From NCBI GenBank assembly GCA_030038475.1, contig JASHOU010000010.1, positions 62,001-126,000 of the forward strand: a DNA stretch of 64,000 nucleotides. The letters run 5' to 3'. The notes beneath the pieces are model-generated. The model was not told the DNA's origin. It did no database searches and saw only the letters and a program-made list of their open reading frames with translations. Source of the DNA: Terriglobales bacterium (GTDB lineage Bacteria; Acidobacteriota; Terriglobia; Terriglobales; Acidobacteriaceae). Made by a program: the position numbers and the translations under genes. Below are positions 6,155 to 63,943 of this stretch, piece by piece; positions within the stretch are counted from its first letter, which is position 1, and every line of letters begins with the position of its first letter.

Positions 6155-7284
6155 TATCGGCGATCCTCGGATCTGCGCACGGCGACGGCATCGCCGGTGG
6201 AGAATTCGAACTCAATGTCAGAATTGGAACTGGAGTTGGGCAAGTTGTGGCTAGCGGTGCGGATGGTGAGCATGAGTCCGGCGTCGGTCTCGACGCGCAG
6301 AAGGTCGGTTGCGCCGTGAAAGGCCTGGTCGCGAATAGTGGCGCGGAAACGAACTGCATTATTGCTTGCAGGAGACGAATTACTGACGACCGATGAAGAA
6401 GGGATTAGACGGATGCACTCTGGGCGAAGCGAGAAAAGTGCTGGGCCATCGGTCAGGGAAATGGGCCATTGCAGCGCGCCGCTGGTGGCGATACCTTGGC
6501 GAACTTCGGCGTGGAGTAAGTTTGTGTGTCCGATGAATTGCGCGGTGTAAGAGGTTGCGGGGCGGTTATAAATTTCGCGCGGACTGGCGACCTGCTCGAG
6601 TTCTCCCGAGCGCAACAGCGCGATGCGGTCGGACATGACCATCGCTTCCTCCTGATCGTGGGTAACGAAGATGAAGGTGATGCCGACCTCGCGCTGTAGC
6701 GCTTTGAGCTCGACCTGCATCTGGCGGCGCAGGTTGGCATCGAGCGCGGAGAGCGGTTCATCGAGCAGGAGCAGGCGCGGACGATTGACCAGGGCGCGGG
6801 CGAGGGCGATGCGCTGCTGCTGTCCGCCGCTGATTTTTGAGGGTTTCGATTTCGCGTAGGCCGACATTTTGACTTTGGCCAGCGCTTCGGCGACGCGCGA
6901 TTCGATTTCGGCGGTGGGGCGTTTGGCGATTGCCAATCCGTAGCCGACGTTTTGTTCGACGGTCATGTGCGGGAACAGCGCGTAGTGCTGGAAGACTGTG
7001 TTGACGCGGCGCCGGTAAGGAGGCTGCGTATCGAGACGTTCGCCGGTCATCCAGACCTCTCCGGCGGTGGGCTGCTCGAAGCCGGCGAGAATGCGGAGGA
7101 GCGTGGTTTTGCCGGAGCCGCTCTCACCGAGGATGGTGAGGAATTCGCCTTCGGCGATTTCGAGCGAGATGTCGCGCAGGACAATGTTTTTGCCGAAATG
7201 TTTGGCGACGTTACGGATCGAAAGCAGGGATGTGGCGGCTGGTTCAGTTTTGTTTGAGACTCCCTGTTCCATCATCGTTGCCAT
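6154..7284 (-). CDS. potA: Spermidine/putrescine ABC transporter ATP-binding protein PotA
   Basis: Cytoplasmic ATPase. Walker A is GESGSGKTTLLRILAG, the signature motif ISGGQQQRIALARAL, Walker B LLLLDEPLSALD, and the switch His is in FVTHDQEEAM. A C-terminal TOBE-like domain follows. ATG at 7284 (MATMMEQG, AGGA seven bases upstream) is chosen over an upstream start at 7335. The extra residues read ARTLLSAK and are translated from a dispersed hairpin repeat, not from PotA sequence. That leaves about 376 residues, normal for PotA. The gene follows potD after a 126-base spacer made entirely of repeats and overlaps potB. Confidence 0.93.
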   Translation of the reverse strand: MATMMEQGVSNKTEPAATSLLSIRNVAKHFGKNIVLRDISLEIAEGEFLTILGESGSGKTTLLRILAGFEQPTAGEVWMTGERLDTQPPYRRRVNTVFQHYALFPHMTVEQNVGYGLAIAKRPTAEIESRVAEALAKVKMSAYAKSKPSKISGGQQQRIALARALVNRPRLLLLDEPLSALDANLRRQMQVELKALQREVGITFIFVTHDQEEAMVMSDRIALLRSGELEQVASPREIYNRPATSYTAQFIGHTNLLHAEVRQGIATSGALQWPISLTDGPALFSLRPECIRLIPSSSVVSNSSPASNNAVRFRATIRDQAFHGATDLLRVETDAGLMLTIRTASHNLPNSSSNSDIEFEFSTGDAVAVRRSEDRR

Positions 7285-7311
7285 GCTTTCGTCCTGGCGC
7301 TGGCCACTTTT

Positions 7312-7331
7312 CGCGGACAGGAGTGTCCGCG
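7312..7331. repeat. Hairpin repeat CGCGGACA-ggag-TGTCCGCG
   Basis: Perfect 8-bp inverted repeat with a four-base loop, between potD and potA. In translation it yields ARTLLSAK or WRGHSCPR, peptides that turn up as spurious extensions of many acidobacterial genes, so it is a dispersed element. In this position it can form an intercistronic RNA hairpin. Confidence 0.75.
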
Positions 7332-7340
7332 CCACACTAG

Positions 7341-7410
7341 CCTTACCGCACCTGCCTTACCACACTTGTCTTGCCACAGTTGTCTTGCCACAGTTGTCTT
7401 GCCACACAGG
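7341..7410. repeat. Five tandem 14-bp units directly after potD
   Basis: Units at 7341, 7355, 7369, 7383 and 7397 share the form (c/t)CTT(a/g)CC(a/g)CAc/g-(c/t)TG. Units 3 and 4 are identical (TCTTGCCACAGTTG). The array ends one base before the potD stop codon. It is a young tandem expansion inside an operon spacer and is likely to vary in copy number between strains. Confidence 0.9.
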
Positions 7411-8475
7411 TTACTGGGTGGCTTTGACTTCGTTCCAAATCTCGTTGTACTTGGCGCGGCGCGGGACATTCTGCCAGAAATAGAGGCGCTTCTGGTAATT
7501 GTCCACGTCGTCGAGGTGCAGGTTCTTCACTTCGTCCGGTGTCATGAATTGGGCGGCGTGCGGATTAGCCGGGGTGTACCCGGTCACGTCGGTGACTTGT
7601 TTCTGCGTCTGCGCCTGAATCATGAACTCAAGAAACTTGTAAGCGAGATCTTTGTTTTCGCTGCCGGCGGTGATCATTAGGTGGTCGATCCAGCCGGTGG
7701 TGTTTTCTTTGGGAATGGTTTCGCCGATCGGGAAATTGGCTTTGCGCAACTGATTGGTCATCAGCGGCCAGCCCATGGCGATGACGACTTCGTGATTCTG
7801 AAACAAGTTAGTAAGTTCGCCGCCGGTTGACCAGATCTTGCGAATGTTTGGCTTCAGGGCGATCAGCTTCTTCTTGACGGCGTCGAGTTCTTCGTCGGTG
7901 AGGTTATAAAGATGAGCGGGATCGGGCTTGTCGTAGCCGAGCACCTGCGCGGCCATGTAGACGGTGGAGAGATCGTCCCACACGGAAACCTTTTCTTTCA
8001 GCTTCGGGTCCCAGAAGACGTTCCAGCTGTCGGGCGGCTGCGGGAACGCGGTGGTGTCGTAGATCATGGGATCGGGACCCCACATGAAGGGGACGCCATA
8101 GACTTCGCCTTTCACGCGAACCAGAGACAGCGAGGTGAGTTGAGGCGAAAGCTGGCCATAGCTGGAAACTTTCCCGAGATCGAGCGGAGCGGCAAGGCCG
8201 GAAGTGGCAATCATGGTGGCCACATCGCTTGAGGGCGAGATAATATCGTAGTTACCGGAGCTGCCGCCGCGAAGTTTGGCGACGAGTTCGTCGCTCGATC
8301 CCATGTAAGACGCCGAGACTTTGCAGTGGTTGGCGTCTTCGAACGCCTTGACGTAAGACGGATCGGCGTAGCCTTCCCACACGAGCAGGTTGAGGGTGGG
8401 AGTTTTATGGGAGCAGGATGCGGCGAAGAGGATTAGTAAGAGAGCGAACATTACCAGGATTGGTTTAGGCAACAT
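7411..8475 (-). CDS. potD: Polyamine-binding lipoprotein PotD
   Basis: Substrate-binding component of the PotABCD importer. The N-terminus MLPKPILVMFALLLILFAASC is a lipoprotein signal with lipobox FAASC, so the protein should be tethered to a membrane rather than free in the periplasm. LNLLVWEGYADPSYVKAFED and the GSSDELVAKLRGG segment are PotD/PotF features, as is VPFMWGPDPMIYD. C-terminal ligand-closing residues follow (TGWIDHLMIT, LEFMIQAQTQKQVTDVTGYTPAN). 354 residues, normal length. First transporter gene after the regulator. Whether it prefers putrescine or spermidine cannot be told here. Confidence 0.91.
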   Translation of the reverse strand: MLPKPILVMFALLLILFAASCSHKTPTLNLLVWEGYADPSYVKAFEDANHCKVSASYMGSSDELVAKLRGGSSGNYDIISPSSDVATMIATSGLAAPLDLGKVSSYGQLSPQLTSLSLVRVKGEVYGVPFMWGPDPMIYDTTAFPQPPDSWNVFWDPKLKEKVSVWDDLSTVYMAAQVLGYDKPDPAHLYNLTDEELDAVKKKLIALKPNIRKIWSTGGELTNLFQNHEVVIAMGWPLMTNQLRKANFPIGETIPKENTTGWIDHLMITAGSENKDLAYKFLEFMIQAQTQKQVTDVTGYTPANPHAAQFMTPDEVKNLHLDDVDNYQKRLYFWQNVPRRAKYNEIWNEVKATQ

Positions 8476-51759: not shown

Positions 51760-52443
51760 CTAGAGAACGGCTGACATGCTCGTTCCCGCTGCTTCAAACA
51801 CCTCCGCCGCTTCCTGCTCCGCGATCGGTATGAATACTCGCAAGACATCCGGGTCGAACTGCGTTCCGCCGCTGCGAACGAGGCGCGCAATCGCCTCTGG
51901 GTGCGGAAGCCCCTGCCGGTAGCAACGGTTGGAGACCATCGCATCGAAAGCATCGATAACTGAGATAATCCGCGAAACCATGGGAATGTCATTCCCTTTG
52001 AGCCCGGCCGGATAACCGGACCCATCCATGCTTTCGTGGTGGTGCAAAGCGTAGAGACTTGCTTCCTCAAGCCCAGGGAACAATCGCAGAATTGACCAAC
52101 TATACTCCGGATGGCGGTTGATGAGCGCGCGCTCTTCGATCGTCAATGGACCCGATTTTTTCAGAATCGAGTCTGGCACGCCGACCTTGCCAATGTCATG
52201 CAGCAACGCGGCGACTTCCACTTGGTAAAGGCGATTCTCGGGAATCTCTATCTTCCGCGCCACCCGCAACGCCCATTCTGCGAGCCGAGTACTGTGTACG
52301 CCAGTGTTGAGATCTTTCAGGTCGAGCATCTGGTTGAAAGCGCAAACCAGAGAATTGCGAAAGGCCAAATGCTGCTCTTCCAGCTCCTTGACGCGCAGCG
52401 TTAGACCAGGCGCATCCTGAATCAGATTTGAGATCGCCGCCAT
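51760..52443 (-). CDS. HD-GYP domain phosphodiesterase
   Basis: 227 residues: a short N-terminal helix, then the HD-GYP domain. Metal ligands appear in NTGVHSTRLAEWA (His50), ALLHDIGKVGVPD (His82, Asp83) and INRHPEYSW, and HHHESMDGSGYPAGLKG contains the GYP signature (143-145). Domains of this type hydrolyse cyclic di-GMP or cGAMP. No receiver or sensor domain is attached. The gene begins 30 bases after the subtilase stop and is the last gene of the long minus-strand run, so it may be part of that module. Confidence 0.87.
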   Translation of the reverse strand: MAAISNLIQDAPGLTLRVKELEEQHLAFRNSLVCAFNQMLDLKDLNTGVHSTRLAEWALRVARKIEIPENRLYQVEVAALLHDIGKVGVPDSILKKSGPLTIEERALINRHPEYSWSILRLFPGLEEASLYALHHHESMDGSGYPAGLKGNDIPMVSRIISVIDAFDAMVSNRCYRQGLPHPEAIARLVRSGGTQFDPDVLRVFIPIAEQEAAEVFEAAGTSMSAVL

Positions 52444-52473: not shown

Positions 52474-53799
52474 TTACAGCGCGAGACGGCAGGTTAGAAG
52501 TGCCTGATAAGTATCCAGACGTCCCCATCCTAGATTCAGATTGTCGATGAAATGCGCATCGGCCAAGCCAGTAGGAATACTCGATACGGAGCAGTTGCTG
52601 TTGTTCCCCAACATGAGCGCCGCAGTGCCAGCTACGAAGGGAGTGCTGAACGAGGTGCCCCATCCGGCGGCCCAGGTTCCCCAGGGGTAAGTTGTGACCA
52701 CCCCTTCTCCCGGCGCAGCCATGAATACTGGAGGCACGCCGTAATTCGTAAACGTGGACTGGACATCGGTATTCGAAGTGGACGCAACGTCGATCACTCC
52801 AGGGAGTCCGCCCGGATAAACCATTATGTCCTCGCTGTCATTTCCAGCCGAGGCGACCGAAATTACCCCCTTACTGTTCGAATACTTGATAGCAGTTGCG
52901 AGCTCCTGCGAGTAACTTGTGTAATTAAAGCTCATGTTCATTACATTGGCACCGTTAGCCACGGCGTAGTAGATGGCGCGCAGAATGTTCGAGTCGTAGG
53001 CAGTGCCGTCCGAAGTGAACGCTTTGAGCGGCATGATACTTGCCTCGGGCGCGACTAGGTGTACGATTCCCGCAGTCATAGTTCCATGTCCGAAGTCTGA
53101 ATACGAGCTGCCATCGAGCACCGCGACCGTGCGCTGATCCAGCACCGCGACCGTCCGCTGGTCCAGGGTTGCAGGCTGGGCATCACTCATGTCGGGAGCG
53201 GCTGGAGCGCCGTTCATTTCTGAACCGCCGCTGGTATTGGTTGTGAAGTCATAGCCGTCGACCAGAACACTTTGCAGCACTGGGTTGTTGGGATCCACGC
53301 CCGTGTCGATAACTGCAACTGTCGCGCCGGCGCCGGCGACGTTAAATGTCGACTGTGTTTGCGCGGTTCGCACTAACTCGTTCGCGGGCTGCACCAGGTA
53401 AGCTTGCCAAACGGTTGCGCCGTAGTAAGACGTCGGGGTCTCATCCGTCAGGTACGACGCATCGGAGTTTGACTCCGGCTGCTGCTGAGACACCACTTGA
53501 TCGATTTCGACATCGACGATGCCAAGATCTTGGCTGATTTCGAGCAGGTCGGTGACCGGATTCAGAATGGCAGGGAAAGTCACCAAAAATAACTGGCCGT
53601 TCGGGTCGCCAAGGCTTTCCACGACGGTGCACCCGGCCAATAGACAGGTCAGGTTCAGACCCGGCAGCCCTAGCGAATCGCGCACAATCACGCGAGTTTG
53701 CGCTTGCATAGCCGGCGCGCAAAAAGCAGTCACCAACAGAAGCAAGCAAGGCATTATGCCCGCACGCCGAATGTTAAAATTAGACTTTAACTCACCCAT
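52474..53799 (-). CDS. Secreted S8 (subtilisin-like) serine protease
   Basis: 441 residues from MGELKSNF at 53799. Signal peptide ends near MQAQ (residue 34). A short prodomain-like region (VIVRDSLGLPGLNLTCLLAGCTVVESLGDPNGQLFLV...VDVEIDQVVS) precedes the catalytic domain. The triad is Asp165 (VAVIDTGVD), His238 (GHGTMTAGIV) and Ser383 (GTSFSTPFVAG), with the oxyanion Asn in SAGND. Just before His238 the octapeptide DQRTVAVL is repeated head to tail. No membrane anchor. Lies between the anti-sigma-like gene and the HD-GYP gene; predicted to act outside the cell or in the periplasm. Confidence 0.9.
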   Translation of the reverse strand: MGELKSNFNIRRAGIMPCLLLLVTAFCAPAMQAQTRVIVRDSLGLPGLNLTCLLAGCTVVESLGDPNGQLFLVTFPAILNPVTDLLEISQDLGIVDVEIDQVVSQQQPESNSDASYLTDETPTSYYGATVWQAYLVQPANELVRTAQTQSTFNVAGAGATVAVIDTGVDPNNPVLQSVLVDGYDFTTNTSGGSEMNGAPAAPDMSDAQPATLDQRTVAVLDQRTVAVLDGSSYSDFGHGTMTAGIVHLVAPEASIMPLKAFTSDGTAYDSNILRAIYYAVANGANVMNMSFNYTSYSQELATAIKYSNSKGVISVASAGNDSEDIMVYPGGLPGVIDVASTSNTDVQSTFTNYGVPPVFMAAPGEGVVTTYPWGTWAAGWGTSFSTPFVAGTAALMLGNNSNCSVSSIPTGLADAHFIDNLNLGWGRLDTYQALLTCRLAL

Positions 53800-53918
53800 T
53801 GCTTTCCCCTTTTGGACCTTGTTCCTGGTCGTCATTTTAGGATTGATTCTTTGCCACTTGCCACTTACAGCTGTACTCTCTCTGGAGTAACTCCCGTGGT
53901 TTCTTTGGTCATTCATTG

Positions 53919-54542
53919 TCAGTTACCTCTATCTTGCAGGGCCAGCGGAATCCGCACTGCATTGCGGTCCTCCGCCTTAACCGACAGCCATAGATCGTCT
54001 TTCGTTTGATACTCAAGTTGAAATTCTCCTGAAACACTGACGGGCGCTGTCGCGACCAGTCGGTGTTGTATTGTCGACAACTCGACGCTGGCCTTGTCCT
54101 GCAGGGCCCGCACTGCTTTTTTGTCGAACACTTGGCCTATGATATGAAGCGCATTCGATTGTGCGCCACGACCTAGCCGTAGATCTACGGTCAGGCCCTC
54201 GGCCTCGTAAACCATCTGCCAGGTATTCAGCGCGCCGCTGCGCACTCCTGCAGGCAGCGGTTGTGCCAAACTGTCAAAAACCAGATTAGCGACGGTCCAG
54301 TCCCTCTGAGGCTGATCTGTACGTGTGTTCTCAAAGGCAAGCTTCACCAGACGCACCAGATTTTCCGGCGGCGCATAGCCCATTTCTTGGACTGCCATTC
54401 TTCCCACCCGGCCCCAGGCGTCGTAAGCTGTCTTGCACTGCAGACAATCAGCAACGAGATGAGCGTTGATACCGTCGCCAACCTTTGGAGCCATTACTCC
54501 ACGAACAAAATCAACCCACGATTGTTCGGAAAAATGCTGCAT
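53919..54542 (-). CDS. Anti-sigma-like zinc-finger protein
   Basis: 207 residues. N-terminus SEQSWVDFVRGVMAPKVGDGINAHLVADCLQC carries an H-x4-C-x2-C zinc-knuckle pattern like the HC2/ZAS region of anti-sigma factors. A helix follows (ENLVRLVKLAFEN), then a C-terminal beta-rich domain (VYEAEGLTVDLRLGRG, LHIIGQVFD, VSVSGEFQLEYQTKDDLWLSVKAED). No membrane segment, so if it is an anti-sigma factor it is cytosolic. It lies after the TPR-CHAT gene in a run that starts with a sigma factor. Role inferred from motif and position. Confidence 0.6.
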   Translation of the reverse strand: MQHFSEQSWVDFVRGVMAPKVGDGINAHLVADCLQCKTAYDAWGRVGRMAVQEMGYAPPENLVRLVKLAFENTRTDQPQRDWTVANLVFDSLAQPLPAGVRSGALNTWQMVYEAEGLTVDLRLGRGAQSNALHIIGQVFDKKAVRALQDKASVELSTIQHRLVATAPVSVSGEFQLEYQTKDDLWLSVKAEDRNAVRIPLALQDRGN

Positions 54543-54663
54543 CTCTGTCCTCTCATTTGGGGGAGGGCATTAGAGCTAGTACGTCGAGCGTATCTTCTAT
54601 AACTATCGCCAGGGATGAACTGGCCCTTACTACAAAAGGGATCGCAGGGGCCAAGAAAATACA

Positions 54664-54690
54664 GGTAACCGGTAGGAAAGTACGGTTACC
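54664..54690. terminator. GGTAACCG / CGGTTACC inverted repeat after the TPR-CHAT gene
   Basis: 8-bp perfect stem, 11-base loop, in the 149-base gap after the CHAT stop. Can form an RNA hairpin; no T run follows on the minus strand, so attenuation or processing is as likely as termination. Confidence 0.4.
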
Positions 54691-54691
54691 G

Positions 54692-57565
54692 TTACTCCTT
54701 TCCGATCAATAAGAAAGGAGCCCAATGGTAGGGATGGGGCCGCCGTTGCCGCAGCCTGATGGAGGCGCTTTGCAGCGCTTCCGCCTTCGGCAGTCCAGTT
54801 TGGAGTTCGCCATAAAAGTCGATCATAAATTCCTTAGTGCTGTCGTCATCGACGTCCCACAAGCTCAAAATCAGCGACTGCGCTCCGGCTTGCAGCAAGC
54901 CGCGGACCAAGCCCATCAATTCGTCACCGGGCGTAACCACGTTCAACCCGGTGGCGCAACCGCTTAGTACCACCAACTCAGCCGGCAGTCGCAGATGAGC
55001 CATGTCATAAAGGCTAAGATAGGAATCTCCCAGACGAATCGAGGAAAACATCGGGTTATCCTGGCGAAAATACCCGTGCGTCGCAATGTGTACGATTTTG
55101 CTGCCTGGCCCGTGGCTTTTCAGAACTGCCGAGGTTGCATCGTCCCCGACAAATAGTCTGCTGTTGGGCAAGATTTTGGATACTGCATCTACCTCCGCAA
55201 GAATAGCGGGTGTTCGCTCATCAGCCACGCCCAGGATTAGCGAATCACGGATTAGCGAATCGCTACTCGTGTTGAGGTGTTTCCTTTGGCAATGACCATA
55301 CACGCTGGCACTCGGCGCGTAGGAGACGGAAAATTGATCAACTAAGTATGAATTCCCATCATATAGAGCGTGAAACGGAACGTAATGCAGCAACCCATGC
55401 TGTACAAACACTATATGCCGTCCGTCGAGCATATCCCGGACAGGCGCGACTAACTCTTGATACAAACTCTGTAGGTGTGCCTGTGTCGATTCGAGTAGGG
55501 ACTGGCTGAAGATTTCCACATATTGGGGATCAAGGCGGAATTTCGACATCTGAAATTGCAGCAACTGCAGCAGCTTTTGAATTCGCGACTGCAGCGTGAC
55601 TGGACAGATGTGAAGTCTATCGCGCGTCAGCACGCAGGCCACGATGCGATCGTGTGTGCAGAAAAACTCGAGCAAAACGGTGTCCGCGGGAAGGACCGAA
55701 CGAATCTCCTCTAATGACATGGCGGAGGGAACCTGCAATCCCGCTTCATTCGCTTCCGCAACACTCGCTTGCTTGACCGCCCGCATCAAGTCCGACTCTC
55801 GCGATCGGGCCTGTCGTTCGAGTTGCTCGACCCTCTCCCGCGATCGCCCTTCCGGCCGCAATTGTTCGCGCTCGATCAGGTTGTAATACCAGTTCAGTTC
55901 CTCGCGGAGGTTGCGGATCGAACGCACGAGTTCGCTTTGTCCGGGATCGGCCGCGCTCGGAACGTGCACCGGGTGGTTTAGAACATCCATCAACGTCCGC
56001 GATTTGGCTTGTTCGATGTAGGTGAACGCCTCTGCGAAGCCGTTCTGACGTCGAAGACAAATGTCTACCAGGCTTTCGTATACTTCGAGTTTGTTTTCGA
56101 AGAAAGCAATCTTGAGTTCTTCTCCGCGCAGGCTGCTGCGCAGGCGCTCGATTGCTGCACGCGCATGGCAGTAAGACTCATAGGCCGCATCTTCATTTCC
56201 AGTGATTCGCTCCACTTCGCCCATCACAAACTCGGCTTGATAGAGAAGCGTCGGCGAATCCAGATTTGCCAGTTCCCTGAGGGCCGCCGCGCAGTGTTGT
56301 TTTGCCAGAGCTGTGTCGCTCAGCCGCAGGGCAATGCGCGCCAGCAATAGTTCGGCTAGAATTGCTTTGCCACGCATCGACGAGGTTCGGAAAAATTGAT
56401 GTGCTGCCGCACCAAGTCGTCGAGCCTCAAATAAGCGTCCTTCCGTGAACAGTACCAGCGCTTGATAAAGATCAATCAGCGAAGGCCAAACCTGGTTCTG
56501 GTCACGAACAAACGTCTTTTTTGCCAAACCAAATAGCTTGACAGCCTCAAACGCCTGCCCTTGACGGCTTGCCGCGATAGCCGAAAACCCCAGTGCTTTC
56601 GCTGCTTCATAACCAAAGCCGAGTTTCTCGAAACTTTCATGCGCTGTCCGACCCAGTTCGTCGGCCTCGCCGTTCAAATTCAGTTCGAGATAGATTTCTG
56701 CCATGTCCAGATTGCAGAGGGCGAGCTGATAAGGGTCGTTCGCTTTCTTGGCGCTCGAAGATGCATCGCGAAGCATTTGAATCGCGCGCCCGTATTCTCC
56801 GCGCAAGAAATATAAGTAGGCAATGTTGTAATCGGCATAAGCGACCAGAATCGGCATGTCCTTCTGCTCGCAGTGCCGTCGCGCGACCTGGTGGAGCTCC
56901 AATGCTTTGGGAAAATCGTTGAGACTGATGTGGCACAGCGATAAATTGCTCAGAACCGCCGCCAACCCTTCCGCATCGTCGTGGGCGAGCATTTGTTGGT
57001 ACGCGCGTTCGTAAAGGGCAAGCGCTTCGGTGAACCGGTCCTGCCGGTGGTAGATGTTTCCAATGTTGATTTCCAGGCGAGCGAGCCGTCGCGCATTGCC
57101 CTGTTTTCGAAAAATCTCGCCGGCGCGCTCGCCCGCGGCCAGTGCCTGATCGTATCTGCCGAGCAACAGCAACGGCTGAATCGATCCGCTCAAAGTCCGC
57201 GCTAGTTCAGCCTTGTCGCCCGTTTGCTCAAATAGAGCGATCGCCTTTTCGTGCAGTTGAACGGCCTCCAAATGTTCATCCAGCGCATACATGGCGTTGG
57301 CTTTTGCCCGAAAGCTTCGGGCAATCAGGCTCGGAGTGCCAAGCGTTTGGGCAACATCCAGCGCCGCGTCCGCCAGTCGCTTCGCCCGATTTGTATCGAT
57401 ACGAACTTCTTGCCAGACTTTTTCGGTGAGCGTTGTTACGATTTCATCCCACGCAATCGTCGAGCATTCCGCGATCAACTGCGCTCGGCTCAAGGCATCG
57501 TCCAGCGCCAGCAGACGCTCAATGGCCGCGTCCGATTCGGTCTTTAAAACCGGCTGGACGCTCAT
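54692..57565 (-). CDS. TPR-CHAT caspase-like protease
   Basis: 957 residues. About residues 40-480 are ten or so TPR-like helix pairs (EHLEAVQLHEKAIALFEQTGDKAELARTLSG, YDQALAAGERAGEIFRKQGN, DRFTEALALYERAYQQMLAHDD). A coiled segment follows around 530-610. The C-terminal CHAT domain (about 640-957) has the catalytic His830 in IVHIATHGYFRQ and Cys870 in ELVVLSGCATGLN, followed by GDELMGLVRGLLQAGAQSLILSLWDVDD and a terminal PYHWAPFLLIG. CHAT proteins are caspase/separase relatives, and the TPR part usually senses a partner. Its start overlaps the sigma factor stop by one base. Cytoplasmic; no signal peptide. Confidence 0.92.
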   Translation of the reverse strand: MSVQPVLKTESDAAIERLLALDDALSRAQLIAECSTIAWDEIVTTLTEKVWQEVRIDTNRAKRLADAALDVAQTLGTPSLIARSFRAKANAMYALDEHLEAVQLHEKAIALFEQTGDKAELARTLSGSIQPLLLLGRYDQALAAGERAGEIFRKQGNARRLARLEINIGNIYHRQDRFTEALALYERAYQQMLAHDDAEGLAAVLSNLSLCHISLNDFPKALELHQVARRHCEQKDMPILVAYADYNIAYLYFLRGEYGRAIQMLRDASSSAKKANDPYQLALCNLDMAEIYLELNLNGEADELGRTAHESFEKLGFGYEAAKALGFSAIAASRQGQAFEAVKLFGLAKKTFVRDQNQVWPSLIDLYQALVLFTEGRLFEARRLGAAAHQFFRTSSMRGKAILAELLLARIALRLSDTALAKQHCAAALRELANLDSPTLLYQAEFVMGEVERITGNEDAAYESYCHARAAIERLRSSLRGEELKIAFFENKLEVYESLVDICLRRQNGFAEAFTYIEQAKSRTLMDVLNHPVHVPSAADPGQSELVRSIRNLREELNWYYNLIEREQLRPEGRSRERVEQLERQARSRESDLMRAVKQASVAEANEAGLQVPSAMSLEEIRSVLPADTVLLEFFCTHDRIVACVLTRDRLHICPVTLQSRIQKLLQLLQFQMSKFRLDPQYVEIFSQSLLESTQAHLQSLYQELVAPVRDMLDGRHIVFVQHGLLHYVPFHALYDGNSYLVDQFSVSYAPSASVYGHCQRKHLNTSSDSLIRDSLILGVADERTPAILAEVDAVSKILPNSRLFVGDDATSAVLKSHGPGSKIVHIATHGYFRQDNPMFSSIRLGDSYLSLYDMAHLRLPAELVVLSGCATGLNVVTPGDELMGLVRGLLQAGAQSLILSLWDVDDDSTKEFMIDFYGELQTGLPKAEALQSASIRLRQRRPHPYHWAPFLLIGKE

Positions 57566-58179
57566 CAGAAGCCTCTCTTTTCCAAGTGCTTCTTGAGATA
57601 GGCCAGGCAGCGTCCGCGAATCGCGCCAATCGATCCCTTCGCCATGCCCAGCTCCTTCGCAACATTCTCGTAGGGTCGCGGAGGAATTTCGAAAAAAAGC
57701 AAATGAACCATCCGCTCACATCTCTCGGGCAGCTCTACAATGGCATCGCGGAGCATCTGCTCTTGTTCGAGTTGCAACAGCATTTGCTCAGGAAGGTCTT
57801 CACTGTGGCTGGCAGGCAGCGCGGCATTGCTCTCGGCAGCTTCTGGTGTAAGCTCAACCAGCCGTTCCCCGTCACGTTGGTGGTGAAGGCATTTGTGATA
57901 GCAGACCTGCATCAGCCATTTTGGCAAAGCGCCGTGTTCGCGAAGTCGCGGCAGTTCCGAAAGCAAATCCACACAAACTGATTGAAAAATGTCCCCCGCA
58001 TCCTGATACATCCCCAGCTTGATTGGAATCGAGTAGATCAGATTCTTGTACTTGTCGATCAGCGCTGACCATGCCTCCTGATCACCCTTAAGGCAACGAG
58101 CGATCAGCTTTTCATCGGAGAGACCGCCCGAAGACTGGACCGGCTTTTCCTTCTGCCGTCCTGTTGCTGTTCCCGTCAT
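57565..58179 (-). CDS. ECF-like sigma-70 family RNA polymerase sigma factor
   Basis: 204 residues. Region 2: ARCLKGDQEAWSALIDKYKNLIYSIPIKLGMYQDAGDIFQSV. Region 4: LPERCERMVHLLFFEIPPRPYENVAKELGMAKGSIGAIRGRCLAYLKKHL. Regions 1 and 3 are absent, as in ECF sigma factors. Its ATG overlaps the stop of the peptide-binding protein gene (ATGA) and its stop overlaps the TPR-CHAT start, so it is translationally coupled on both sides. Likely directs polymerase to a small regulon, perhaps including this run. Confidence 0.9.
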   Translation of the reverse strand: MTGTATGRQKEKPVQSSGGLSDEKLIARCLKGDQEAWSALIDKYKNLIYSIPIKLGMYQDAGDIFQSVCVDLLSELPRLREHGALPKWLMQVCYHKCLHHQRDGERLVELTPEAAESNAALPASHSEDLPEQMLLQLEQEQMLRDAIVELPERCERMVHLLFFEIPPRPYENVAKELGMAKGSIGAIRGRCLAYLKKHLEKRGF

Positions 58180-59951
58180 CGCACTCCTGCGTTCTGCGGA
58201 GCCGAGCTGCGCACATAAAGCTCATCCGCGTTCCATAACGTATAGGGATCGAGCACAGCCGGATGGAAATTGCCGACGCGCACATTCGCGCCAGCCAGAA
58301 TGTTGGGCGTTCCCAAAAAGACGAAAGGAAGATTATCGGAGATAAGTTGCTGCGCGCGATCGTATAACTGCTTTCGCTTGGCATAGTCGAGCGTGACCAT
58401 CTGTTGTTGCATAAGTTGGTCGAGTTCACGCTCCCAAGCTGTCGCGGGCTCGGTTTCGTTGAGATGCCACAAGTGTGAAGTTCCGTTGAAGGTCCACACG
58501 TTCATCTCCGGATTGGGGTCTGCATCCCCGCCACCGAGCCCCATGATTGCGGTGTCATAATCGAAGGTCTGAAATATGCGGTCAATCATCGCGCGAAATT
58601 CGAGCGGAACAACATGCACCTGCATTCCGAGATGCGAGAGATCGTCTTGCACTAGAGTTGCCATCTTCATGCGCTGGCTGTTCGAGGAACTGGTGACAAT
58701 CGAAAACTCCACGGGCCGCCCCGCCGCGTCTACTAACAGCCCCGCGGGATTCCACGAATATCCCGCTGACTTCAGCAACTGTCTTGCAGTTTCCAGCGAA
58801 CGCTGTGGATGCGGCAGATTCTGATCGACCCAGAGTTTGTTCCCCGGACCGACGTTTCCCCACAGCGCCGCGCCGCGTGATCCATACACCAGGCGCACGA
58901 TGGATTCGCGGTCAACCGCTGCTGAGATTGCTTGTCGGAATTTCAGATCGCGAAACCACGTCTGCTTGCGCGCAACTTCGTCGAGTTTTTTGCCGCTCAG
59001 ATCGTTAAGGTTGAACAGCAGGAAGTTGTATTCCAGGCTCGGCCCCATATCCGCCAGCTGCGAATCCATGCGGGATTTCTCGCGCACGAGAAGGTTGTAA
59101 TTTTCTGCGCTGAGCCGGCTGATCATGTCGGTCTCGCCCGCTTCGAATCGCATCACTTGCGCGTCCTCGGTGCCCACGAATAGAAATGCGAGTTCATCAA
59201 GATAAGGCAACCGCCGATTCTCGGCGTCAACCTTCCAATAGTAGGGATTGCGTTCCACCACGATTTGTTGGCCGGGAGTGTATTGTTTGAGTCGAAAAGG
59301 GCCCAAGCCGGCGATCTCGCCCGGGGCGACGTTCAAACCCCATGTCTGCGCGAAATGGCCCTCACGGTACGGCTTCTCCAGCAGATGTCTCGGAAGCATG
59401 GCCAATCCATCAAACAACCTTTCACCCGCGGCATAGGGACGCGGTAAGACGAACCGTACCGTGTATTGGTCGAGTTTTGTAACTTGCATCGGCTTGCCGT
59501 CGATGATGAGCAGATCCCGCTGCGGCGAATCGACCGCCTCATCCATGTAGACCTTGAAAGAGAACAACACGTCGTCCGCGTCGAAGGGATACCCGTCAGA
59601 AAAGCGAATACCCTTGCGGAGTTGCAGGGTAAACGTCTTGCCGTCGGCAGACATTTTCCATGATTTCGCGAGCGCCGGTTCGGTCTGCTGCGTCGATCGG
59701 TTGATGTCGATCAAGTCTGCCATAAGTCGCCCGATCACCTCGCGTGACACCGCATCCGTGGCAGTAACGGGATTAAGCGTCTTGGGTTCAGAACGTTGCC
59801 CAATCGTCAGGTGTCCGCCGTATTGGCCGGAGACATCAGCGTCGCGTGCGAGTTCTTCGCCTGGTTTTGCCGCTTCTGGAGCCGGCGCGGCCGCGAAGCA
59901 GATGCCTGCGAGCAGGCACACGTGTAGGGTTAGGTGAGCGATCAGCTTCAT
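58176..59951 (-). CDS. Peptide ABC transporter substrate-binding protein (SBP family 5)
   Basis: 591 residues. Signal peptide MKLIAHLTLHVCLLAGICFAAAPAPEAAKP. Family core: GQYGGHLTIGQRSEPKTLNPVTATDAVSREVIGRLMADLI, PALAKSWKMSADGKTFTLQLRKGIRFSDGYPFDADDVLFS, GPFRLKQYTPGQQIVVERNPYYWK and FRQAISAAVDRESIVRLVYG. OppA/DppA-like periplasmic receptor for di- or oligopeptides. Lies 28 bases after the OppC-like gene and overlaps the sigma factor gene by four bases. Confidence 0.9.
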   Translation of the reverse strand: MKLIAHLTLHVCLLAGICFAAAPAPEAAKPGEELARDADVSGQYGGHLTIGQRSEPKTLNPVTATDAVSREVIGRLMADLIDINRSTQQTEPALAKSWKMSADGKTFTLQLRKGIRFSDGYPFDADDVLFSFKVYMDEAVDSPQRDLLIIDGKPMQVTKLDQYTVRFVLPRPYAAGERLFDGLAMLPRHLLEKPYREGHFAQTWGLNVAPGEIAGLGPFRLKQYTPGQQIVVERNPYYWKVDAENRRLPYLDELAFLFVGTEDAQVMRFEAGETDMISRLSAENYNLLVREKSRMDSQLADMGPSLEYNFLLFNLNDLSGKKLDEVARKQTWFRDLKFRQAISAAVDRESIVRLVYGSRGAALWGNVGPGNKLWVDQNLPHPQRSLETARQLLKSAGYSWNPAGLLVDAAGRPVEFSIVTSSSNSQRMKMATLVQDDLSHLGMQVHVVPLEFRAMIDRIFQTFDYDTAIMGLGGGDADPNPEMNVWTFNGTSHLWHLNETEPATAWERELDQLMQQQMVTLDYAKRKQLYDRAQQLISDNLPFVFLGTPNILAGANVRVGNFHPAVLDPYTLWNADELYVRSSAPQNAGVR

Positions 59952-59979: not shown

Positions 59980-61008
59980 TTAGGTTAATGAAGATTCTAA
60001 CCGGGAATGAAATACATCAGCGAGGGAACTATAGAGTACCGAAGTAACAACAAGAGCGCCGGCTGGGGCCAGCAGCCATGCATAAGAAACCAGGATGCTG
60101 TATTGCTGCAGAGCGCCAAGCATGTTACCCCAGCTGGGTATGGGCTCAGTAACTCCGAGCCCGAAGAACGAGAGCATGACCTCCGCAGCAATATAACGCG
60201 GAACGAGCAGCGCCGCCTGGGTCAGCAGCAAGCCGAAAGTTTCCGGCAATATGTGCCGTCGCAGCACATAGAAGTCGGATGCGCCAAAGCCACGCGCCGC
60301 CAGAACGTAGTTGCGGCTTCGTAAACTGAGCACTAATCCTCGAATCAACCTGGCCGGTCGGGCCCAGCCAATCATGCCAATGACGCCGGTCAATAAGAAA
60401 AAAGTTTCGATTGCACTCAGATGCAATGGCAAGAACGCCCGCAAGCCAAGCAGGAAGTAAAGCCACGGCAACGACAAGAACAGCTCTGTCACGCCCATCA
60501 GCGACTCGTCAACCCAGCGCCCGTAGTATCCCGCAATAACTCCGAGAATGCATCCCAATAAAAGCGCGATCAACGTTGCCGTGATTCCGGCTGCGACCGA
60601 AATCTGGCCGCCATACAAAACGCGAGAGAATTCATCGCGTCCGTAACCGTCAGTACCCCAAAGAAAAATTCTCCCCGGCTCGTCGACGCCAAACAGATGT
60701 AGCGACGTTTCGTAAATGCCCACTAGTTTGTAACTTGAACCGCGTACAAAAAAATGCAGGGGATATTCAACGCTACGAGTCTCACTGTAAGCGCCAGGTT
60801 GATTACTGCTCGTGTTAGCCGTCCAGGCATACACAAACGGACGAAGATGAAACCCTGAGGCGTTTATAAAATGCAGTCGCGTCGGCGGAGCGTATGGCTG
60901 GTCACGGTTTTGGCTGGCAGCATCGTAGGGCGCGAAAAATCCGGCAAACAACAAGACAAGATGCAGTCCTACGATCACCGCAACCAACGCCAACGTCTTA
61001 GTCCGCAT
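59980..61008 (-). CDS. Peptide ABC transporter permease, DppC/OppC type
   Basis: 342 residues from ATG at 61008 (GAAGG upstream). An N-terminal helix (LALVAVIVGLHLVLLFAGFF) precedes a periplasmic insert of about 90 residues. The transport domain has GTDGYGRDEFSRVLYGGQISVAAGITATLIALLLGCILGVIAGYY and the EAA loop AARGFGASDFYVLRRHILPE. The ATG lies within the end of the OppB-like gene (11-base overlap). Partner of the next permease. Confidence 0.9.
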   Translation of the reverse strand: MRTKTLALVAVIVGLHLVLLFAGFFAPYDAASQNRDQPYAPPTRLHFINASGFHLRPFVYAWTANTSSNQPGAYSETRSVEYPLHFFVRGSSYKLVGIYETSLHLFGVDEPGRIFLWGTDGYGRDEFSRVLYGGQISVAAGITATLIALLLGCILGVIAGYYGRWVDESLMGVTELFLSLPWLYFLLGLRAFLPLHLSAIETFFLLTGVIGMIGWARPARLIRGLVLSLRSRNYVLAARGFGASDFYVLRRHILPETFGLLLTQAALLVPRYIAAEVMLSFFGLGVTEPIPSWGNMLGALQQYSILVSYAWLLAPAGALVVTSVLYSSLADVFHSRLESSLT

Positions 61009-61975
61009 TCGTACCTTCTCTGCGAATGCGCGGGTCAAATGCGAGCAGCATTACGTCGGCAACGAGATTCCCGCCTACCATGAATAACGCCGAGAACATA
61101 ATTCCGCCGATCACTAGATATAGGTCGCGCGATAGTGTAGCTTCTAGAATCAGCGGCCCTAATCCAGGCCAACCGCATACAACCTCAACCAATAGCGATC
61201 CACTGAGCAGGCCAGCCAGAGAAAATCCTAGTAGCGAAATAGCGGGATTAGCCGCCGCGGACAACGCATGACGAAACAAAAGCCTAGCTCGGCGGATTCC
61301 AAATCCGCGCGCGGCATGCACATAGGGAGCGTCTAATGCCTCAACCATACTGGCGCGAATGTGCCTGACAATCACGGCGCTTTCACAAACGGCAAGAATA
61401 AGCACCGGCAACGCCAGATGCCGCGTGAGGTCCTGCAATTTCGTCCACTCGGAAAGTCCGTCGAAGTCGGTCGACGTCATTCCGCCTATAGGAGCCAATC
61501 GCCAACGAACTGCGACCGCCAATACCGCCACGGCAATCACCAACTCCGGAACAGATATGACAAATGAACTCGCCAGAGTAACCGTCTTATCTAACAAACC
61601 TTCTCGCCAATTTGCAGTCCACACGCCCAACGGAACGGAAATAAACCAGGTGAGAAGCAGTGCCGTGGTTGTCAGCAACAGAGTGTTTTGCGTCCGTTTC
61701 CACAGCAACGGTGCGACCGGCATGTTGTAGGCTATCGAATACCCAAAATCCGCATGCAGCGCCGATTTCATCCACCGCCCATATCTCACTGCGAGCGGCT
61801 GGTCCAATCCGTAATGCGCGCGCAGCGCCGAAATCGTTTCCGGAGAAATCTGCGGATTCAACCGCATTTCGTCAAAAAAACTGCCCGGCGCCATTTCTGT
61901 AAACAGAAAACAAAGCGCCGATACTCCGGCCAGCAACAGGATCGCTCGCAGCAGTCTTTGGCCGACGTAAATCAC
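60998..61975 (-). CDS. Peptide ABC transporter permease, DppB/OppB type
   Basis: 325 residues: first helix RLLRAILLLAGVSALCFLFTEMAPGSFF, LRAHYGLDQPLAVRYGRWMKSALHADFGYS (the conserved OppB periplasmic loop), and the EAA loop AARGFGIRRARLLFRHALS. Ends REGTNAD. The start overlaps the upstream ATPase gene by four bases. Confidence 0.91.
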   Translation of the reverse strand: MIYVGQRLLRAILLLAGVSALCFLFTEMAPGSFFDEMRLNPQISPETISALRAHYGLDQPLAVRYGRWMKSALHADFGYSIAYNMPVAPLLWKRTQNTLLLTTTALLLTWFISVPLGVWTANWREGLLDKTVTLASSFVISVPELVIAVAVLAVAVRWRLAPIGGMTSTDFDGLSEWTKLQDLTRHLALPVLILAVCESAVIVRHIRASMVEALDAPYVHAARGFGIRRARLLFRHALSAAANPAISLLGFSLAGLLSGSLLVEVVCGWPGLGPLILEATLSRDLYLVIGGIMFSALFMVGGNLVADVMLLAFDPRIRREGTNAD

Positions 61976-62874
61976 CCTTGTGCTCCCACAGCAGCCGCGA
62001 ATTTCGCTGTAGCTAGCTTTGCCGAAACCAGCTGTTTCTTTGTTGCCGCCTCGCTCGGGTTTAAAATGATTTGTTGGGTCGGGCCAATTTCCACGATCCG
62101 CCCTCCGGACATAACTGCGATTACATCCGCTAAATGCACTACTAGTGCTAGATCGTGAGAAATCAGGAGATAAGTCAGTTGATGCGCTTCTTGCAAATCG
62201 AGTAATAAGTTGGCGATTTGGGCCTGAGTCGACAAATCCAATCCACTGAATGCCTCATCCAGCACCAGTAACTGAGGGCGCAAGACAAGTGCACGCGCCA
62301 GCGCCAGCCGCTGGCGTTGCCCCCCGCTGAAGTGAAGGATCGATCGATCCATCCAATCCGGAGAAAGACCGACTTCGGCCATCAAAGTGCGGACCAGATC
62401 GCGACGATCTTCTCGTGTGTAGCCAACTTGGCCGCTTTGGCGACCTATAATCGTCGGTTCGCTAATGATCAAGGGTTCTTCGATGACTTCCCGCGCCGAG
62501 AATCGCGGGTTCATCGAGGTCACAGGGTCCTGAAAAACCATTTGGATGCGCGAGCGAAAAGGAGCCAGTTCGCTGGGATGAAGCTGTGCGATGTCGGTCC
62601 CTCCGATCAGGATTTGGCCAGAGTCCGGTCGTTCGAGTCGCGCCACGCATCGTGCCACGGTGCTCTTTCCCGATCCAGACGCCCCGACCAATGCTAGAGT
62701 CTTCCCATGCTGAATCTCGAAATCAACATCGCGGACAGCGGTAATCGACCTGTCCTTCTGCCAGAGACTACCCCGCGCATATTTCTTACAAAGGCCGCTT
62801 GCGCACAAAAAGCGACCAATGGGCTCTGGTTCATTGCCACGGTTAGCTGGAGAGTTAGTCGACATGCTCCCCAT
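61972..62874 (-). CDS. Peptide ABC transporter ATP-binding protein, DppF/OppF type
   Basis: 300 residues. Walker A GASGSGKSTVARCVARLE, signature FSGGQRQRLALARAL, Walker B LLVLDEAFSGLD, and SHDLALVVHLADVIAVM. Shorter C-terminus than OppD. The start overlaps the stop of the preceding ATPase gene. Confidence 0.92.
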   Translation of the reverse strand: MGSMSTNSPANRGNEPEPIGRFLCASGLCKKYARGSLWQKDRSITAVRDVDFEIQHGKTLALVGASGSGKSTVARCVARLERPDSGQILIGGTDIAQLHPSELAPFRSRIQMVFQDPVTSMNPRFSAREVIEEPLIISEPTIIGRQSGQVGYTREDRRDLVRTLMAEVGLSPDWMDRSILHFSGGQRQRLALARALVLRPQLLVLDEAFSGLDLSTQAQIANLLLDLQEAHQLTYLLISHDLALVVHLADVIAVMSGGRIVEIGPTQQIILNPSEAATKKQLVSAKLATAKFAAAVGAQG

Positions 62875-63859
62875 ACTTGAAACAATTCACGTTTGCCAAC
62901 GGCGCTGGCATGAACTCTGGGGGATAACGTCGCGAACAAACGTCCATCCTTTCGCAGCAACGCGGCTCAAACCTGCAGCCAACCGGAAGGCTCGTGGGAT
63001 TCGGAGTTTCGCCATCGATCACCGGGAGTCGCGCGCTCTTTGCCGCTCCGGTAACCACTGAGGACGTCGCTATCCGGACCAGCGCTTGAGTATAAGGATG
63101 CAGCGGCCGGCCGAAGATCACGTCGGTGCTGGCGACTTCGACGATGCGGCCTGCATACATAACGGCCATACGATCCGCAAATCCGGCAAAGAACACTGGA
63201 TCGTGGCTGATCGCCAGAATCGCTGTACCGTGTTGCCGCCGAATCTGCGACAACAGCGTTACAATCTCCGCCTGCAGGGACACGTCGAGTTCGCTGGTTG
63301 CTTCATCGGCGATTAATAGAGCGGGCCTGCACGCTACGGCCTGCGCAATGGCAATCCGCTGGCGCTGGCCTCCACTGAGTTGATGAGGATAAGTGGAGTA
63401 AATTTCTTGTGGCTCATTGAACCCAACCTCACGAAGTAAATCTAGGACCCCTTGTCGGCGTTGCTGAGTATTGAGTGGCAGATGAGACCGCAGCACTTCA
63501 CTGACTTGTGAGCCGGCGGTCATTACCGGATTGAGTGCAAGAGCCGGATCCTGCGGAATCAGCGATATCTCTTGGCCGCGGATCGCACGCAAATCTCTTT
63601 CGGGCAAACTCAACAAATCGCGGCCGCGAAACAGGATGCTCCCATCCTCACATTTTGCCTGCGGTGGCAGCATCTTTAACAACGCGCTTGCCAGCGTGCT
63701 TTTGCCGCAACCAGATTCTCCAAGTATTCCGACTACTTCTCCCGAGCAAATGTCTAGGCTGACTCCATCGAGGGCGCGTACTGGATCGCCGTTCGCAGGG
63801 AAATATGTAACCTTTAGCTCGTGGACCTGAAGTAAGTATTTGTTGGAGTTATCCACCAT
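62855..63859 (-). CDS. Peptide ABC transporter ATP-binding protein, DppD/OppD type
   Basis: 334 residues from ATG at 63859 (a TTG at 63871 is less likely). Walker A GESGCGKSTLASALLKML, signature LSGGQRQRIAIAQAV, Walker B LLIADEATSELD. The C-terminal oligo_HPY region (GRPLHPYTQALVRIA...LPVGCRFEPRCCERMDVC) has the Cys cluster that ligates a 4Fe-4S centre in some relatives. First gene of the twelve-kilobase minus-strand run. Confidence 0.92.
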   Translation of the reverse strand: MVDNSNKYLLQVHELKVTYFPANGDPVRALDGVSLDICSGEVVGILGESGCGKSTLASALLKMLPPQAKCEDGSILFRGRDLLSLPERDLRAIRGQEISLIPQDPALALNPVMTAGSQVSEVLRSHLPLNTQQRRQGVLDLLREVGFNEPQEIYSTYPHQLSGGQRQRIAIAQAVACRPALLIADEATSELDVSLQAEIVTLLSQIRRQHGTAILAISHDPVFFAGFADRMAVMYAGRIVEVASTDVIFGRPLHPYTQALVRIATSSVVTGAAKSARLPVIDGETPNPTSLPVGCRFEPRCCERMDVCSRRYPPEFMPAPLANVNCFKYGEHVD

Positions 63860-63943
63860 ACACCAACCCAATCAAATCTTACTCATAATGTCTGGGCTTG
63901 AAAAAACGCGGTGGAACCACGACCAAAGTTTCGAGTGAGTCGA

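Follow-up and report, generated by a model that had tools for sequence, protein, structure and literature searches.

In type III-E CRISPR systems, the TPR-CHAT protease Csx29 relieves the inhibition of CASP-sigma by cutting Csx30 within a small flexible loop that belongs to the C-terminal domain of Csx30 (PMC10028731). Release of a sigma factor triggered by a cytoplasmic protease has so far been described with CRISPR sensors, namely Csx29 and CalpL. We have analyzed a stretch of 64,000 nucleotides from a member of the Terriglobales (contig JASHOU010000010.1; hereafter the window), in which genes for an ECF-type sigma factor, a TPR-CHAT protease, and a zinc-binding protein of the anti-sigma type lie in a row. 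The whole is probably best explained as a stand-alone sigma switch under the control of a protease. We found no description of this gene set in the open-access literature.

Organization of the locus

The genes of the module, the predicted promoter, and the neighboring genes are as follows, from the lowest coordinate to the highest.

51760-52443, minus strand: HD-GYP-type phosphodiesterase (PF13487, E 4.1e-43), conserved at the same place in most loci of the window's class
52474-53916, minus strand: S8 subtilase with a signal peptide, probable output gene (PF00082, E 2.1e-32; hydrophobic N-terminal segment)
53919-54542, minus strand: zinc-binding anti-sigma-type protein, 207 aa (ZAS helical domain, G99-x-R101-S102 loop, C-terminal beta-sandwich)
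54634-54665, minus strand: predicted sigma promoter, CCTGTATTTT-N15-CCCTTTT (-35-like 54656-54662, -10-like 54636-54640)
54692-57565, minus strand: TPR-CHAT caspase-like protease, 957 aa (PF12770 and TPR; His830 codon 55076-55078, Cys870 codon 54956-54958)
57565-58179, minus strand: ECF-type sigma factor (sigma2 and sigma4), 204 aa (TIGR02937, profile matches, alignment)
58176-59951, minus strand: peptide-binding protein (SBP) of an Opp/Dpp-type ABC transporter (PF00496, E 3.7e-80)
59980-61975, minus strand: two Opp/Dpp-type permeases, 59980-61038 (PF00528, E 1.4e-24) and 60998-61975, both with syntenic orthologues
61972-63871, minus strand: two Opp/Dpp-type ABC ATPases, 61972-62874 and 62855-63871 (ORF sequences; generic ABC-ATPase matches)

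The initial annotation of this DNA had recognized the sigma, CHAT, and zinc-finger reading frames, and it was right about the place and strand of all three. Base 57565 is indeed common to the sigma and CHAT genes, as the reported one-base overlap implies, and the sigma reading frame also shares 4 bases with the SBP gene. The trio stands as first drawn; left out of that unit were the S8 and HD-GYP genes downstream, the Opp genes upstream, and the promoter-like element at ∼54634-54665. The likely start codon of the subtilase lies at 53799, and the HD-GYP gene is presumed to be the last of the output transcript in the window's class. No membrane-like segment was found in the sigma factor, the protease, or the zinc-finger protein of the window, in keeping with the earlier description of the last as soluble.

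The sigma factor and the TPR-CHAT protease

The sigma factor scores 72.6 bits against the sigma70-ECF model TIGR02937, above the ECF threshold of 42.9. It is conserved in the alignment of orthologues, and the best profile matches of its family are the ECF structures SigH, RpoE, and SigW.

The protease scores 216 bits against the CHAT model PF12770 (cut-off 24; E 7.8e-64), with TPR repeats N-terminal of this domain. Both catalytic residues, previously noted as intact, are present within the fold, as is characteristic of the CHAT family: H830 and C870 are invariant across 23 orthologues and are kept in 122 of the 123 members of a wider CHAT set that cover those positions. The sequence predicts a caspase-like protease with a conserved catalytic pair. 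Among solved CHAT/C50 structures, only that of Csx29 and, weakly, that of separase match the family. One CHAT homologue, at L144 9896-12748 (a Thermoanaerobaculia bacterium by title), has Gln and Ser in place of the catalytic His and Cys and is probably inactive; neither a sigma nor an anti-sigma gene adjoins it.

The zinc anti-sigma-type protein

Searched alone, the product of 53919-54542 matches no Pfam or NCBIfam model, and its identity was therefore built from relatives. In an alignment of 21 orthologues, M1, H3, H28, C33, and C36 are invariant, which is the ligand pattern of zinc anti-sigma factors. The H-x4-C-x2-C motif seen at the outset is H28-x4-C33-x2-C36, to which the invariant H3, absent from the initial annotation, is now added; relatives have either H-x4-C or the standard H-x3-C spacing. 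When orthologues are scanned singly, 6 of the 21 match zf-HC2 (best 6.4e-5), and matches to NCBIfam anti-sigma and RsrA models and to RsrA/ChrR-type profiles are also obtained. The family profile compared with the PDB retrieves RsiW and an RskA-type complex (E about 0.035). The family has the helical domain, the N-terminal His, and the H-x3/4-C-x2-C motif of a ZAS domain, so that the proposed anti-sigma protein does belong to the zinc anti-sigma kind. Its C-terminal half matches carboxypeptidase-regulatory-like beta domains in 11 of the 21 orthologues, and an AlphaFold model (mean pLDDT 83, lower at residues 91-110, about 71) has four helices followed by a beta-sandwich. Judging from its sequence and that of its relatives, the product is a real anti-sigma-type protein in which a zinc domain is fused to a beta-sandwich, and it would bind and inhibit the neighboring sigma factor.

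We claim no fold relative for this protein. Foldseek and VIA-align match the model only with common beta-sandwich arrangements, such as the MG domain of alpha-2-macroglobulin and glucuronidase (best Z 8.5), in comparisons that barely test the zinc domain. When the family profile is compared with solved structures, anti-sigma factors are found and the Csx30 chain is not among the matches, a result that concerns profiles and not folds.

In up to a fifth of the wider anti-sigma family, either the zinc ligands or the region that would hold them is missing, and the sigma-binding part is therefore not uniform across the family. At L087, L091, L092, and L093 the N-terminal domain is truncated or replaced and has no zinc ligands; the trio and its promoter element are still kept there, as is the G-x-R-S loop. 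One genome (G228, loci L069, L073, and L081-L084) holds about nine matches to the anti-sigma family, several in complete sigma/anti-sigma/CHAT sets, which is a lineage expansion. A response-regulator-like reading frame directly precedes the anti-sigma gene at L034 7780-9246 and L074 7251-8639.

Conservation of the gene set

Conservation of the trio had been named beforehand as a check on the initial annotation, and this check was strongly passed. Among 75 unique related CHAT genes (duplicates removed, 3.5 kb of flank required on each side), 60 are accompanied by both partners on the same strand and 15 are without one or both, and an S8 subtilase gene is also present at 53 of the 60 complete trios; these counts are not unbiased frequencies, because similarity to CHAT or to the anti-sigma protein was how the loci had been collected. 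The partners travel together, in two gene orders and in at least four phyla. The loci come from Acidobacteriota, Chloroflexota, Rubrobacter (Actinomycetota), and, in the less complete form of anti-sigma plus CHAT, Planctomycetota; the search of wider phyla used the CHAT alignment as its query.

Within the window's class, most loci, with CHAT identities as low as about 50%, keep the order Opp transporter, SBP, sigma, CHAT, anti-sigma, S8, HD-GYP. When the whole phylum is searched with the anti-sigma family, the set turns up in many more families, usually in the order sigma, anti-sigma, CHAT, S8. The search with the CHAT alignment also brought in genes from unrelated CHAT groups (e.g., L186, L187, and L198), and these have neither partner adjoining.

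A probable promoter with a fixed spacer

The gap between the CHAT and anti-sigma genes is unconserved except for a bipartite element, CCTATATTTT-N15-CCCTTATT, whose 15-base spacer is exact in 12 of 12 aligned loci and whose consensus is RTATTTT-N15-C(C/A)CT(T/G). A looser pattern, (GTMTTTT or ATATTTT)-N15-CHCTK, was counted across 140 loci with spacers of 8 to 22. It occurs at 56 unique sites when the spacer is 15, as against 2 to 7 at every other spacer, and 47 of the 56 lie outside the loci from which the element was derived. A weight matrix made from the 12 loci recovers the element upstream of anti-sigma genes in held-out loci, including those of CHAT-less paralogous sigma/anti-sigma pairs (L061 and L062).

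A first tally of 59 sites, duplicates included, placed 39 before anti-sigma genes, 7 before S8 genes, and 13 before neither. Some of these 13 fall inside over-extended anti-sigma reading frames; others lie, mostly at a distance of 82 to 127 bases, ahead of the start codons of genes whose exported products have a signal peptide and repeats or Ig-like sequence. The S8 genes that bear the element themselves are found in seven related loci. At L205, L214, L216, and L229, exported proteins of one family, with proline/threonine/serine-rich linkers, have the element, also at sites unlinked to the module, and these are likely surface proteins of the sigma regulon.

Genome-wide, the regulon was searched with strict patterns, which miss degenerate sites. 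The window genome has only two exact sites, both before anti-sigma genes and one of them at 54634-54665; all exact matches in genomes of the window's class likewise precede anti-sigma genes, and none occurs in seven control genomes that lack the module. Unlinked sites were found before an S8 gene in G172 and before members of one surface-protein family in G201 and G336. The pattern read backwards gives 0 to 5 matches per strand and genome, and isolated single matches in other genomes are therefore not to be trusted. The second sigma/anti-sigma pair of this family in the window genome (L061, G000:C129:74000-88500, at 6879-8423) has the element; it lies near sensor kinase and response-regulator-like reading frames, with no CHAT or S8 gene beside it.

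The element is probably the promoter of the module's sigma factor, to which only location and co-occurrence tie it and by which it would be read. Its place before the anti-sigma gene ties the sigma/anti-sigma pair together. Since it sits after the CHAT gene and before the anti-sigma gene in the window's class, sigma and CHAT are probably made there with the Opp operon, on the input side, and the anti-sigma, S8, and HD-GYP genes are probably the output of the sigma factor. Where the genes stand in the other order, the element precedes CHAT, which is then an output too. The layout in the window's class, with CHAT beside sigma on the input side, favors CHAT as a regulator, which in other lineages is possibly self-reinforcing as well. 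Sigma, anti-sigma, promoter, and S8 output are well supported as a regulatory unit. To this extent the circuit drawn initially holds; it did not include what the sigma factor probably switches on, namely a secreted subtilase and surface proteins.

The gap between the anti-sigma and S8 genes holds a second conserved, palindrome-like element, TTAC-n-GTGTAA, at 53863-53891 of the window and in several orthologous loci (e.g., TTACACGTGTAA, L025). It is possibly the operator of another regulator.

A candidate cut site

Among 115 anti-sigma family members compared, all 112 that cover the position of Arg101 have Arg there. The surrounding motif is G-x-R-[S/G]; the loop that holds it joins the first strands of the beta domain and is modeled with lower confidence, and members without zinc ligands still carry the residue. 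CHAT proteins fall among the separase-like peptidases of clan CD, and cleavage after Arg is a property of several of these. Asp907 of CHAT is nearly invariant in the family, with Ser at that place in the Csx29 alignment; by analogy with separase, it may be the acid of an S1 pocket with a preference for Arg. From these alignments we tentatively nominate the bond after Arg101 as the one that CHAT may cut, a choice that could well prove right. The same Arg is also kept in anti-sigma genes with no linked CHAT (L061, L062, L063, L065, and L074), and may therefore serve some other function or be a target in trans. Invariance alone does not tell whether a residue marks a cut, takes part in binding, or supports the structure.

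Proposed mechanism and alternative explanations

At rest, the ECF sigma factor would be bound in the cytoplasm by the zinc-finger protein and so kept inactive. CHAT would be activated when its TPR domain senses a signal inside the cell, and it would then cut the anti-sigma protein, probably after Arg101, in the loop that joins the zinc domain to the beta-sandwich. The freed sigma factor would then read promoters of the RTATTTT-N15-C(C/A)CT(T/G) type. In the window organism these would drive the anti-sigma gene, for negative feedback, and with it probably the HD-GYP gene and that of the secreted S8 subtilase. Other lineages would add further S8 genes and genes for exported surface proteins to the regulon. 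Cleavage of the anti-sigma protein by CHAT would fit all of the findings, including the invariant Arg loop, and we regard proteolytic release of sigma by CHAT as the most likely mechanism and a fairly probable one.

It is rather unlikely that the pair is instead a conventional one, with redox or metal release at the zinc site as in RsrA/ChrR, and that CHAT is a co-regulated effector acting on other proteins. The HHCC zinc site with its RsrA/ChrR-type profile matches would suit such a switch, as would the output position of CHAT in the other gene order and the L061 and L062 pairs, which share the promoter with no CHAT beside them. However, in the window's class the element comes after CHAT, which is probably made with sigma and not as an output. 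Moreover, where the zinc ligands are gone, the trio persists with its promoter and Arg loop, for which a zinc switch offers no explanation.

The signal might be a peptide: the subtilase would release peptides, the Opp transporter would import them, and the TPR domain of CHAT would bind them and operate the switch, by analogy with Rap/RRNPP regulators. The SBP and Opp genes, with S8, stay near the trio in most loci of the window's class despite rearranged order (e.g., L030, L035, and L063, the last with anti-sigma, S8, and the whole Opp set in a row), and the TPR region of CHAT matches Rap phosphatases. These TPR matches are generic, however, with GPSM2 and designed TPRs scoring far higher. No pro-peptide gene was identified, and inspection by eye of the interval between CHAT and the anti-sigma gene revealed no conserved pheromone reading frame, the conserved part being the promoter element. 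Because in other families and phyla most loci have no Opp genes, a peptide imported by Opp is not the general signal, and we consider peptide sensing unlikely as an explanation of the module. For the window's class itself, imported peptides are suggested by the presence of the Opp transporter and a secreted protease next to a TPR protein.

CHAT proteases act in CRISPR immunity (PMC10028731; PMC11229360), and the locus could be imagined as a defense or cell-death module in which phage infection activates CHAT and the sigma response forms part of immunity, as in Craspase. PADLOC matches the S8 gene with generic subtilase models of defense libraries and gives generic matches for the ABC ATPases, but it returns no specific defense match in the operon. 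Reading frames, family profiles, and PADLOC agree that the operon encodes no Cas7-11/gRAMP or other Cas protein, as had been noted initially. The window genome has a Cas1-family match on another contig, and no Cas1 match is present in 11 of 18 module-bearing genomes. The genes that accompany the module are instead those of nutrient transport and of secreted or surface proteins, with promoter sites in front of them, all of which makes a defense role very improbable. That the genes are chance neighbors with no functional link, for which nothing was found beyond the small size of a single locus, has a negligible probability and is refuted by the conservation analysis, with the same set at 60 of 75 unique loci in two gene orders and unrelated CHAT genes without it.

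Comparison with known systems

The initial annotation drew a parallel with type III-E systems, which stands as an analogy only. Membership is rejected: CHAT scores 45.9 bits against the Csx29 model NF041237, whose cut-off is 300, and no Cas gene is linked. The module resembles Craspase in outline, yet it is not a member. Both encode together a TPR-CHAT protease with the His/Cys pair, an ECF-type sigma factor, and a partner that inhibits sigma, and the cut in a flexible loop of the inhibitor, known for Craspase (PMC10028731), is predicted here. In contrast to Craspase, the module has neither Cas7-11 nor crRNA, its CHAT protein falls far below the Csx29 cut-off, and its inhibitor is a 207-aa zinc anti-sigma protein with a beta-sandwich and not Csx30. 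Its predicted output is a secreted protease and surface proteins, and the set is conserved across several phyla.

Two further CRISPR-linked cascades are alike in part, by the account given in PMC11229360. In CalpL-CalpT-CalpS of type III CRISPR, a cytoplasmic protease cuts an anti-sigma factor and frees the sigma factor, as we propose here, but CalpL is a Lon protease with a SAVED sensor for cA4, unrelated in fold and in signal. In the SAVED-CHAT cascade, a CHAT protease starts a proteolytic response, as ours would; that protease is described there as carrying SAVED for cA3 instead of TPR, and as rare and linked to CRISPR or CBASS.

The class I zinc anti-sigma factors RsrA, RsiW, and those of the RskA type share with the inhibitor the ZAS domain with H-x3-C-x2-C and are found by its profile matches. 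In the module, however, this domain is fused to a beta-sandwich and not to a membrane helix and is paired with a CHAT protease; unlike classical RseA and RsiW systems, the anti-sigma protein of the window has no membrane segment. The EACC2/caspase systems, as Kaur et al. (2021, PMC8195603) present them, also place bacterial caspase-like proteins near ECF sigma factors and TPR proteins. Their constant domain is caspase and not CHAT, they have TRADD-N and EACC2 parts, and that account, as far as it could be compared, describes no zinc anti-sigma or S8 set. HetF of Anabaena, a putative CHAT-TPR protease with a regulatory role outside CRISPR, is according to PMC8406250 membrane-anchored and concerned with cell division and heterocyst development, with no sigma/anti-sigma partner among the features given there.

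It is quite possible, though we offer this as a tentative view, that a widespread CRISPR-independent class exists in which cytoplasmic TPR-CHAT proteases cut dedicated zinc anti-sigma factors at one invariant Arg, so that a sigma factor with a promoter type of its own turns on secreted proteases and surface proteins, with Craspase as the CRISPR-guided version. With the module come a candidate substrate and a site where it may be cut, together with the sequence of a promoter and a predicted regulon. If the proposal is true, some of the TPR-CHAT proteins that abound in soil bacteria would gain a role. A CRISPR-free set conserved in several phyla would also generalize the circuit of protease-triggered sigma release and suggest a possible source of the CRISPR version.
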